Shown piece by piece: positions 4,370 through 31,709 of a DNA stretch of 51,770 nt. The DNA is taken from positions 1 to 51,770 of the IMG/VR virus record IMGVR_UViG_3300046734_000377; one strand, 5' to 3'. Within the stretch, counting starts at the first letter, position 1. Each line of letters opens with the position of its first letter. The notes below the pieces were generated by a model that had not been told where the DNA came from, did no database searches, and saw nothing but the letters and a program-made list of their open reading frames with translations. The position numbers and the translations under genes are program-made. Source of the stretch: a virus.

Positions 4370-4518
4370 AGGTAGCAGCACCTAAGGGTTATCACTGGAT
4401 GAAGCAGTCGAACGGGACAATGAAGGTGATGAAAGATCCCAAAGAAGGTTTTAAGAAGCATAAAGGCGCGAGCAAGACCGCTAACTTTGCTGTGCAGCGC
4501 TCACACGGTAGCAAGTAA
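4366..4518 (+). CDS. Small basic protein (50 aa)
   Basis: Starts inside the stop of the previous gene (ATGA) and ends in TAATG overlapping the next start. The product is basic, with KGYHWMKQSNGTMKVMKD near the N-terminus and GASKTANFAVQRSHGSK at the C-terminus. The three basic ORFs 4265-4943 form a coupled set directly before attP. Function not recognised. Confidence 0.6.
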   Translation: MKVAAPKGYHWMKQSNGTMKVMKDPKEGFKKHKGASKTANFAVQRSHGSK

Positions 4519-4943
4519 TGGCTAGAACCGACGAGCCTAAGTGGAAGCGGATTGTTGCGGCTGTAAAGGCTGGATCTGCAGGCGGCAAACCTGGGCAGTG
4601 GTCGGCGCGTAAGGCGCAGATCGCCACTCAACGCTACAAGAAAGCCGGTGGTGGCTATAAAGGCCCCAAGACTAAGGCCCAAAAGTCACTGTCGAAGTGG
4701 ACAAAAGAAGAGTGGGGCACGAAGTCCGGTAAAAACTCAACTCAAGGAAAGAAAGCAACAGGTGAAAGGTATCTCCCGAAGAAGGCTAGAGCGGCTCTAT
4801 CAGACAAGGAGTACGCTGCCACTACCCGTAAGAAGCGGGAAGACACAAAGAAAGGCAAGCAGTTCTCAGCACAGCCAAAAAAGATAGCGAAGAAGACAGC
4901 CCGAGTACGTAAGGCAAGTCATCGACCAAGGCGTCGTTCTTAA
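4518..4943 (+). CDS. DUF5872-like basic protein
   Basis: 141 residues, extremely Lys/Arg-rich. It shows the pattern KPGQWSARKAQ, then SLSKWTKEEWGTKSGK, then GERYLPKKARAALSDKEYAA, which I recognise as the DUF5872-type protein seen in many marine phages and some large viruses. Its molecular role is not established. High charge suggests nucleic-acid binding or a virion-internal role. Coupled by TAATG to the preceding gene and the last gene before the attachment site. Confidence 0.7.
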   Translation: MARTDEPKWKRIVAAVKAGSAGGKPGQWSARKAQIATQRYKKAGGGYKGPKTKAQKSLSKWTKEEWGTKSGKNSTQGKKATGERYLPKKARAALSDKEYAATTRKKREDTKKGKQFSAQPKKIAKKTARVRKASHRPRRRS

Positions 4944-4946
4944 CGG

Positions 4947-4963
4947 CCCCCATTGGTGTACTT
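4947..4963 (+). repeat. Direct repeat, left copy, beside attP (candidate integrase arm site)
   Basis: The 17-mer CCCCCATTGGTGTACTT recurs with one change at 5142-5158, 195 bp away. The pair flanks the putative attP core and lies just upstream of the integrase gene, where arm-type binding sites of tyrosine integrases are expected. A shorter CCCCCAA also occurs at 5014-5020. Role inferred from position. Confidence 0.45.
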
Positions 4964-5070
4964 CGGATTAGGCTAGATTATAAAATCTAATAAAAACAAA
5001 GACTTAATTTTGGCCCCCAAAGCGCCTCTGGTCTTTTTAAGTTACTGATTTATAAGGGAAATATATTGTA

Positions 5071-5097
5071 TGGCGGAGAGAGAGGGATTCTCTCCGC
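5071..5097. other. Candidate attP core, matching the 3' end of tRNA-Ser
   Basis: TGGCGGAGAGAGAGGGATTC (5071-5090) is, read on the minus strand, the TpsiC-arm and acceptor 3' end with CCA of a common proteobacterial tRNA-Ser. Two inverted 9-bp arms, GCGGAGAGA (5073-5081) and TCTCTCCGC (5089-5097), flank a 7-bp centre, GAGGGAT. That is the geometry of a tyrosine-recombinase core site. It lies 77 bp upstream of the integrase start in an AT-rich segment. The tRNA match is from memory. Confidence 0.65.
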
Positions 5098-5141
5098 TAT
5101 CTATATAACCCTATGTTTTTATTAATTATTATAATACGATT

Positions 5142-5158
5142 CCCCCAATGGTGTACTT
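5142..5158 (+). repeat. Direct repeat, right copy, beside attP
   Basis: CCCCCAATGGTGTACTT differs from the copy at 4947-4963 at a single base. It ends 15 bp before the integrase start codon, so a protein bound here could both join a recombination complex and repress int. Candidate arm-type integrase site. Confidence 0.45.
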
Positions 5159-5173
5159 TAGGGGGCCAAGGAT

Positions 5174-6241
5174 ATGGCTACATTTGAACGTCGCGGCAAT
5201 AAGTGGCGTGCGGCAATAAAGAAAGCTAGATATTCGCGGGTCACCAAGACGTTCCAAACAAAGTCTGCGGCGAAAGCATGGGCCATGAAGGTCGAGATGC
5301 AGATGGACGCAGGCGTCTACGTTAACGAGCGCACACAGGTCAGCCACAACCTGTCGGATCTGATCCATACCTACATCGAAGAGCTAAAAGACACAGCGCC
5401 AGTGTCTGGGTCTAAGCTCGCAAGCCTACGTCGTATGGCCCGTGAGTTTGGGGCGGATACGCTCAGTGACCTGACCCCACAGTACCTACTTAACTACGGC
5501 AAACAGCGTCGTCAGAAGGTCGCCGCATCAACGCTTCAAAAAGACATGTCCTATCTCAAGCAGGTGATCGATTACGGCATTGTGATCTGGAGGCTGCCGA
5601 TAGCAGCGAACCCCGTTGTGGTTACACAGCCTACGCTCGGTTCACTCAAGATGGTCGCAGGCAGCAAACGTCGTACACGCCGGTTGCAGGAAGGGGAGTG
5701 GGAAAAACTGATGGCTGGTGTAGGGCGACAGCACAACGCTGAGTCTGGGAACAACTGGTTAAGCCCGATGATCGAGTTTGCTGTGGAGTCGTGTATGCGT
5801 CAGCGCGAAATCCATGAGCTAACTTGGGCGAATGTAGACTTTGGCAAGCACACCATAGCTATAGAAAGCAGAAGAACTCCAGGTCGCAAGCAGGGAAATG
5901 ACCACGTAATACCCATGAGAAAGGGCGTGAGAGAGGTGCTCCTGCGTGAATATGAGAAGGTTGGTAAGGTAACCCGTAACAGAATTCGACTGCCTGCACG
6001 GCCTGATCACGTGTTTGGGAAGCCTGCGACGAGTGGGGCGATATCAGATAGGTTTGCTCGGGTATGTAAGCGGGTGGGCATTGAAGATCTGACGTTTCAC
6101 GACCTGCGGCACGAAGGTATTAGCCGATTGTTCGAAGACAGAGAAAGCAACTATTCGATACCACAAGTAGCGCACATCTCAGGGCATAAAAAGTGGGAAA
6201 CGCTGCGTCGGTATACGCAGCTAAACGCCGAGAACTTCTAA
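5174..6241 (+). CDS. int: Tyrosine-recombinase integrase
   Basis: 355 residues. It catalyses site-specific recombination between attP and the host attB. An N-terminal AP2-like arm-binding domain (about 1-50: KWRAAIKKARYSRVTKTF) is followed by a core-binding SAM-like domain (about 60-150) and the catalytic domain. Catalytic residues visible: R209 (SCMRQREIHEL), H309-x-x-R312 (FHDLRHEG), H338 (ISGHKKWE) and nucleophile Y347 (RRYTQ). Length fits the family. The attP candidate lies immediately upstream. The gene is transcribed with the tail genes and converges on a leftward operon, overlapping its last stop codon by 4 bp. Confidence 0.93.
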   Translation: MATFERRGNKWRAAIKKARYSRVTKTFQTKSAAKAWAMKVEMQMDAGVYVNERTQVSHNLSDLIHTYIEELKDTAPVSGSKLASLRRMAREFGADTLSDLTPQYLLNYGKQRRQKVAASTLQKDMSYLKQVIDYGIVIWRLPIAANPVVVTQPTLGSLKMVAGSKRRTRRLQEGEWEKLMAGVGRQHNAESGNNWLSPMIEFAVESCMRQREIHELTWANVDFGKHTIAIESRRTPGRKQGNDHVIPMRKGVREVLLREYEKVGKVTRNRIRLPARPDHVFGKPATSGAISDRFARVCKRVGIEDLTFHDLRHEGISRLFEDRESNYSIPQVAHISGHKKWETLRRYTQLNAENF

Positions 6242-6465
6242 GCTCGTGGGTCGTCACCCATTGCGAAGCGCGTGTACCAGATAGATTTGCGAAGGTCTTC
6301 ATCGGCATCGAACTTCTTTCCGGCACGCCATTGATACTTGAAGCTGGCAAGGCGGCAATACGTCTGTACAGCTTCAGCACCAAACGCTGCGACCATTGCG
6401 TCGATACACTCTATGTCGCTTTCGGCATAGTGCGCAGGTGAATGCACCATGTCGCCGTCAGTCAT
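6238..6465 (-). CDS. DUF3310 protein (T7 gp1.7-like)
   Basis: 75 residues. HYAESDIECIDAMVAAFG, then TYCRLASFKYQWRAGKKF, then DLRKSIWYTRFAM match the DUF3310 pattern HY..gIE.iD...G...KYlwRagkK...DL.KA.wYl. The T7 member, gp1.7, is a nucleotide kinase influencing dideoxynucleotide sensitivity; whether this short version has that activity is unknown. Last gene of the leftward operon, starting 8 bases inside the excisionase-like gene and overlapping the convergent integrase stop by 4 bases. Confidence 0.75.
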   Translation of the reverse strand: MTDGDMVHSPAHYAESDIECIDAMVAAFGAEAVQTYCRLASFKYQWRAGKKFDADEDLRKSIWYTRFAMGDDPRA

Positions 6466-6670
6466 TGGCGGCGGGGCTCATGCTTTTGTTGATGTAGATC
6501 TCTACACCTTCGGTGGGGAACAAGTACCGTTTACCCATACGCCAGTGTGGTATGCCCAGGGTCTCGTTGTAGAGCCGGTTGTAGATGGTTTGCTTGTTGG
6601 TTTTCACTAGATTGGCCAGATCTTCAACCGTCATAAAAGGGCCGTATTTCTCTTCGAGCATTAGCTGCAT
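6458..6670 (-). CDS. Excisionase / AlpA-like HTH protein
   Basis: 70 residues with a MerR/HTH_17-type winged helix: FMTVEDLANLVKTNKQTIYN (helix-turn-helix) and HWRMGKRYLFPTEGVEIYI (wing and following helix). Small proteins of this type next to integrases act as recombination directionality factors or transcription regulators. A good RBS (AAGGAC) precedes the ATG, and the operator-like dyad at 6705-6721 lies 35 bp upstream, so repression of excision in the lysogen is plausible. Confidence 0.7.
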   Translation of the reverse strand: MQLMLEEKYGPFMTVEDLANLVKTNKQTIYNRLYNETLGIPHWRMGKRYLFPTEGVEIYINKSMSPAAND

Positions 6671-31678: not shown

Positions 31679-31709
31679 TGCAGAATAGTACAAGTGGTAC
31701 TATTCTGCA
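31679..31709 (+). promoter_or_regulatory. Extended operator-like dyad and promoter, copy 10
   Basis: The core TAGTAC-AAGTG-GTACTA (31686-31702) is extended here to 13-bp perfect arms (31679-31691 and 31697-31709), the longest in the set. TTGTTT (31674-31679), 18 bp, TACTAT (31698-31703) can act as a promoter reading into the structured capsid leader. The stem could also fold in RNA, but no T-run follows. Confidence 0.6.

Follow-up and report, generated by a model that had tools for sequence, protein, structure and literature searches.

Work on recombination systems of the lambda and HK022 type has dealt with changes in core specificity in a setting of constant arms. The attP of lambda contains five arm-type sites and three IHF sites (H1, H2 and H'), and its Int has an N-terminal arm-binding domain (PMC4880445). 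The phages YA3 and Ab31 integrate in a serine tRNA gene, as reported from a lysogen (PMC7326022). Among cluster K1 mycobacteriophages, CrimD, Anaya and Adephagia use one attB and differ in their arm consensus, with matching substitutions in the N-terminal part of Int (PMC3203893). Pixie and Tweety, noted in the same paper, have their attB in common but not their arm sites. In KplE1, arm sites lie near the start of intS, and Int may repress its own gene (PMC2951348). The attP described here resembles that of lambda in its five arm-type sites, three IHF-like sites and inverted core-type sites, and that of KplE1 in having arm sites near the start of int. It differs from the latter in that no sigma-70 promoter was recognized at positions 4900-5400, and autorepression of int can here only be presumed.

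Core of the attachment site and its tRNA-Ser identity

The window, i.e., the whole stretch of DNA analysed, is a linear virus record of 51,770 bp without tRNA genes, and its first 25 kb have no near match among 50,697 phage records. A perfect 9-7-9 dyad, GCGGAGAGA/GAGGGAT/TCTCTCCGC, occupies positions 5073-5097 (Table 1), which confirms the inverted 9-bp arms around a 7-bp centre described in the first-pass annotation; two such dyads were observed across the window versus 0.2 expected by chance. The other perfect dyad is AGAATAGTACAAGTGGTACTATTCT at 31682-31706. The sequence TGGCGGAGAGAGAGGGATTC (5071-5090), when reverse-complemented, is identical to a tRNA-Ser 3' end, CCA included. The 20-base tRNA-Ser match claimed earlier is indeed exact: of 151 bacterial genomes (family of the MAG that holds record NZEI01000057.1), 35 have the 20-mer, mostly at the 3' end of tRNA-Ser(GGA) or tRNA-Ser(GCT) genes; ARAGORN identified most of the fetched 20-mer matches as tRNA-Ser. 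The tRNA identity had been placed to the left of the centre with divergence to its right; the former is correct, but the identity also crosses the 7-bp centre and stops only 2 bp to its right. The core ends 76 bp, rather than 77 bp, before the start of a tyrosine integrase gene.

Around 20 related viral contigs, with Int 65-99% identical, carry the core ~70-130 bp upstream of int, and GGCGGAGAGAGAGGGATTCTCT is found just upstream of int in all of those that cover that stretch. Bases 2-20 of the identity block are invariant across the attPs of the close clade, all of which also contain GAGGGAT, a heptamer that is reverse-complemented in more distant relatives with a flipped core. Every aligned relative has TCTnCG in the C' arm even though this is non-host sequence, as expected for a core-type site.

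Table 1. Features of the putative attachment site and of nearby genes, in window positions
Feature	Position	Strand	Remarks
tRNA-Ser 3'-end identity block, 20 bp, attB-shared	5071..5090	- (tRNA sense)	exact match to tRNA-Ser genes
Core-type site C, tRNA-derived arm GCGGAGAGA	5073..5081	+	perfect dyad with 5089-5097
Presumed 7-bp overlap GAGGGAT	5082..5088	.	strand exchange would occur here
Core-type site C', phage-specific arm TCTCTCCGC	5089..5097	+	non-host beyond 5090
Arm-type site P1a, GGGGGCC	4945..4951	-	slot -127, same in relatives
Arm-type site P1b, GGTGTAC	4955..4961	+	slot -117
Arm-type site P2, GGGGGCC	5012..5018	-	slot -60
Arm-type site P'1, GGTGTAC	5150..5156	+	11 bp before P'2, as in relatives
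Arm-type site P'2, GGGGGCC	5161..5167	+	adjoins int ribosome-binding site
IHF-like site H1, AAACAAAGACTTA	4994..5006	+	slot -78; consensus match in nearly all relatives
IHF-like site H2, AATCAGTAACTTA	5038..5050	-	slot -34; in all relatives scanned
IHF-like site H', AAACATAGGGTTA	5106..5118	-	slot +34; IHF-like in most relatives
Conserved P-arm block TTAGGCTAGATTATAAAATCTAATAAAA	4968..4995 (approximate limits)	.	near-invariant across phages with differing arm words
Tyrosine integrase, 355 aa	5174..6241	+	PF00589, E 1.4e-22
HTH_17 protein, 70 aa, candidate excisionase/RDF	6458..6670	-	PF12728, E 2.2e-6

Host-side evidence comes from a marine gammaproteobacterial MAG. In its record NZEI01000057.1, the left side of the core is joined to bacterial genes, including a sulfatase gene, and to the right of the core lie the P' arm of the window's phage family and the first ~80-115 codons of int, which is then truncated (57% identical to the window Int over the best segment). 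A separate contig of the same MAG has an intact tRNA-Ser(GGA) whose 3' end is the 20-mer, in agreement with the assumption that the match is to a tRNA gene in bacteria. The final ~107 bp of this junction's left flank (L021) resemble tRNA-Ser-adjacent DNA in four other genomes and contain an 11-bp-spaced GGGTAC-like repeat; they may be read as scars of other elements that shared the core and had different arm words. Since its int is truncated and its flank holds such scars, the junction appears to be an old, decayed attL-like remnant at a much-used site, and the locus could be rearranged or misassembled. With the core conserved upstream of int in about 20 contigs and with this attL-like junction, the earlier reading of 5071-5097 as an attP core is well supported.

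The suggestion that bacterial genomes would have tRNA-Ser genes ending in this sequence with a prophage next to them is borne out for the tRNA genes but not for the prophage: neither a complete prophage with both junctions nor an attR of the window's clade was found in the genomes and contigs searched, and the attR form (P arm with intact tRNA) was not found in viral contigs. Close Int relatives were recovered neither by a peptide-pattern search of the genome collection nor, at E 1e-40, among 207 genomes of the MAG's family, and 391 genomes of its order gave distant integrases only, apart from the MAG's own remnant; two of these distant integrases adjoin tRNA-Arg or tRNA-Met. Five of six genome matches to the core plus TCT pattern are apparently due to chance, having no int relative and no common right arm, and when the L021 flank was used to look for an empty site, the sulfatase gene was not recovered beside a tRNA. 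We also note two other kinds of locus at the 20-mer or the core. In L167 (1501-2969) and L243, a different integrase of 444 aa adjoins the same 20-mer. The flank is terminator-like, as at tRNA-Ser(GCT) genes that are empty, and GGGGTAG is repeated there with 11-bp spacing; this is another element type on the same attB. In L191, near 1501, the core adjoins GCTCCGTC and a repeat of ATTACGCA with 11-bp spacing, with no integrase seen, and the locus looks like the scar of a lost element.

Distant relatives also have a tRNA-Ser core, which supports the attP reading, as does the integration of YA3 and Ab31 in tRNA-Ser (PMC7326022). In those at 33-37% identity (L034, L069, L213, L215 and L216), the tRNA-derived half lies on the opposite side of the core, so that prophage orientation at attB should differ between the two lineages, and the arm geometry relative to int is kept in outline. 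The 25-bp core of L034 is the exact reverse complement of that of the window, and DNA like its int-side arm adjoins tRNA-Ser(GGA) in a bacterial genome. One orientation change is required on the tree, whose long branches leave deep placements unsure, and these observations suggest that the near-palindromic core permits a change of prophage orientation. About 85-110 bp upstream of int, L216 has a tRNA-Ser variant core, CTTTCTCCGCC, which its phage-specific arm matches (GGAGAAA/TTTCTCC), and the dyad thus persists when the host sequence is altered.

Arm-type sites, IHF-like sites and the integrase

An alignment of 16 attPs, with positions counted from the core start, reveals five 7-bp arm-type sites in fixed slots, viz., two sites at -127/-117 that form an inverted pair across a 3-bp spacer, one more inverted site at -60 and, immediately before int, a direct P' pair with 11-bp spacing. 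In the window's clade the sites consist of two words, GGGGGCC and GGTGTAC, which have 4/7 bases in common, and hence the P' pair taken by itself does not reach significance in that clade; this heterotypic pair was placed by slot and by the exact copies of its words in the P arm. The 17-mers at 4947 and 5142, proposed earlier as possible arm sites, do exist and are identical at 16/17 positions, but the conserved units are the 7-mers. The proposal was right in kind, as P1b and most of P1a lie within one 17-mer and P'1 within the other, but it missed 4945-4951 (in part), 5012-5018 and 5161-5167. Matches to the IHF consensus recur at corresponding slots, most attPs having 2-3 of them versus 0.6-0.9 by chance, and the H' of the window scores below the cut-off used.

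The conserved block of the P arm may be a candidate excisionase site, and a gene order similar to that around the HTH_17 gene (int-...-excisionase-repressor) is seen in phage SS2019XI. Directly to the left of the attP, at 4518-4943, is a 141-aa basic ORF without a Pfam match, which adjoins the attP in several relatives and borders the cassette discussed below.

The Int residues R209, K239, H309, R312, H338 and Y347, whose catalytic roles (R-K-H-R-H-Y) were assigned from position, are invariant across 11 relatives. The N-domain is predicted to adopt a beta-beta-beta-alpha arrangement (pLDDT 83), in which residues 1-27 would constitute a three-stranded arm-DNA-binding sheet; the AlphaFold model of the whole Int is poor outside this domain (mean pLDDT 58). 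Arm-DNA-bind_4 (PF14657) matches 12 of 16 family members, with a best E of 4.4e-5, and the window's own N-domain is without a match. Foldseek searches with the N-domain alone gave no match with E below 0.5, and VIA-align placed AP2 DNA-binding domains among its top rows (Z about 5), a likeness that may reflect a common arrangement only.

Concerted change of arm words and Int residues 1-27

The 7-mers vary jointly between phages (GGCGGAG, GGCGTAG, AGGGCAG, GACCCAC, GGGGCAG and GGGACAC/G, besides the two words of the window's clade) on a constant background of core, IHF-like sites and catalytic domain. The within-phage identity of the five sites is 0.92, versus 0.63 with slots shuffled between phages (p = 1e-4). 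Arm distance is correlated with the distance of Int residues 1-27 when the catalytic domain is held fixed (partial r 0.69, p 2e-4), and gives a partial r of -0.22 with the catalytic domain when residues 1-27 are held fixed. For example, L039 and L040 are 98% identical in the catalytic domain, 30% in residues 1-27 and 0.51 in their arms, and the corresponding values for the window and L006 are 97%, 56% and 0.54; L007 and L015 present the reverse case, with 69% catalytic identity, 93% in residues 1-27 and 0.97 in the arms. The exchanged part of the protein corresponds to residues 2-27 of the predicted sheet, the packing helix (30-46) being conserved. The residues that best track the arm word are 14, 19 and 12, with residue 16 tracking it more weakly; of these, 12, 14 and 16 occupy alternate positions along strand 2 and at its end.

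In a phylogeny built from the core-binding and catalytic domains of Int, with the N-domain removed, 11 arm types call for 12 changes, and one type recurs on three Int backbones. Monophyly of the three GGCGTAG phages or of the three GGCGGAG phages is rejected (AU p 4e-9 and 4e-33, respectively), the p-values being only indicative because the arm-type groups were named after the sequences had been seen.

Comparison of L039 and L040 at the DNA level reveals 96-99% identity between -600 and -200 and 96% between +270 and +600. Identity falls to 40-60% over the arm sites and over int codons 1-27, whereas the 27-bp core that lies in between is 100% identical. The same pattern is observed in L009/L013, and a softer version of it in the window and L006. 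A cassette of ~320 bp, extending from P1 to int codon ~27, thus differs between phages that are 96-99% identical on both flanks. The arm sites and the sheet that would read them appear to be exchanged as a single specificity cassette, which spans about -140 to int codon 27, at a fixed core and attB. Its sharp bounds and the recurrence of types point to recombination more than to slow drift.

Proposed mechanism, alternatives and comparison with known systems

We consider it highly probable that these observations as a whole are accounted for by a lambda-type attP with an exchangeable arm/N-domain cassette, through which a temperate phage of marine bacteria enters a tRNA-Ser gene. As read from the sequence, Int would bind the two inverted core sites within 5071-5097, strand exchange with a host tRNA-Ser gene, at its T-arm/acceptor end, would take place in the 7-bp GAGGGAT, the five 7-bp sites of the arms would be bound by the N-terminal sheet of Int (residues 1-27), and bending by IHF at three positions would unite arms and core. 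Integration is expected to rebuild the tRNA gene, since its 3' end is supplied by the phage.

A GC-rich inverted repeat such as this dyad could also be a transcription terminator or RNA hairpin, with the tRNA match a captured fragment devoid of att function. This is hardly credible, as no terminator-like site was recognized in 4900-5400 and no T-run follows the dyad, which is moreover conserved along with int, arms and IHF-like sites and is joined, as part of the core, to non-phage DNA in the MAG. It is similarly very improbable that the 7-mers are operators of another regulator, a repressor or an excisionase, rather than Int arm sites. The location of P'1/P'2 at the start of int and the presence of HTH_17 and HTH_3 genes nearby would suit an operator function; however, the 7-mer type tracks Int residues 1-27 where the remaining Int is 97-98% identical, the DNA break points lie inside int, and the five-site geometry around the core with its IHF-like sites fits the lambda attP (PMC4880445).

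If the 7-mers are true Int arm sites, their change may still be neutral, through co-drift or recombinational hitch-hiking without selection for separation. We regard this as quite possible: Adephagia is apparently transitional between two arm specificities (Pope et al., PMC3203893), and L009 and L027 have small site differences within a phage, although the cassette that sets near-identical phages apart has sharp bounds and a type recurs on three Int backbones. The benefit of cassette exchange would be that elements on one attB are kept off each other's sites. Accordingly worded as an identity system, in which elements on one tRNA-Ser attB, phages as well as islands, swap cassettes and each Int recombines its own prophage only, the idea is put forward tentatively, and we would be equally cautious about the protein-DNA specificity code that it entails, to be read from sequence as Int residues 12, 14, 16 and 19 versus the 7-mer.

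The attP core noted in the first-pass annotation is ordinary in kind, and what deserves to be followed is the exchange of cassettes around it. The Int proteins of the Pseudomonas phages YA3, Ab31 and PAJU2 are about 30% identical to that of the window over 99% of its length. PAJU2 likewise has a tRNA-Ser-like core with 11-bp-spaced repeats around it, but this core is oppositely oriented relative to int and the arm words are different, and YA3 has 64 bp of identity with the tRNA compared to 20 bp in the window. Unlike in lambda, the P arm here consists of an inverted pair and one further site, the P' arm of two sites, and attB is a tRNA gene. In the open-access literature, to which the search was confined, we found no report of a bounded arm/N-domain cassette exchange. 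Cassette exchange at a fixed attB is a variation on a link between arms and N-domain that was foreshadowed in the cluster K mycobacteriophages; there, the difference concerns one consensus position among close relatives, and Pixie and Tweety were noted without further analysis, whereas here whole words change together, within a sharply bounded cassette and on several Int backbones. The system offers a testable reason for many elements sharing one tRNA gene, and its naturally occurring, matched pairs of Int domain and arm word could serve to derive an arm recognition code. It is a natural reverse of the lambda/HK022 case, in that core and attB are frozen and arm specificity is repeatedly exchanged.
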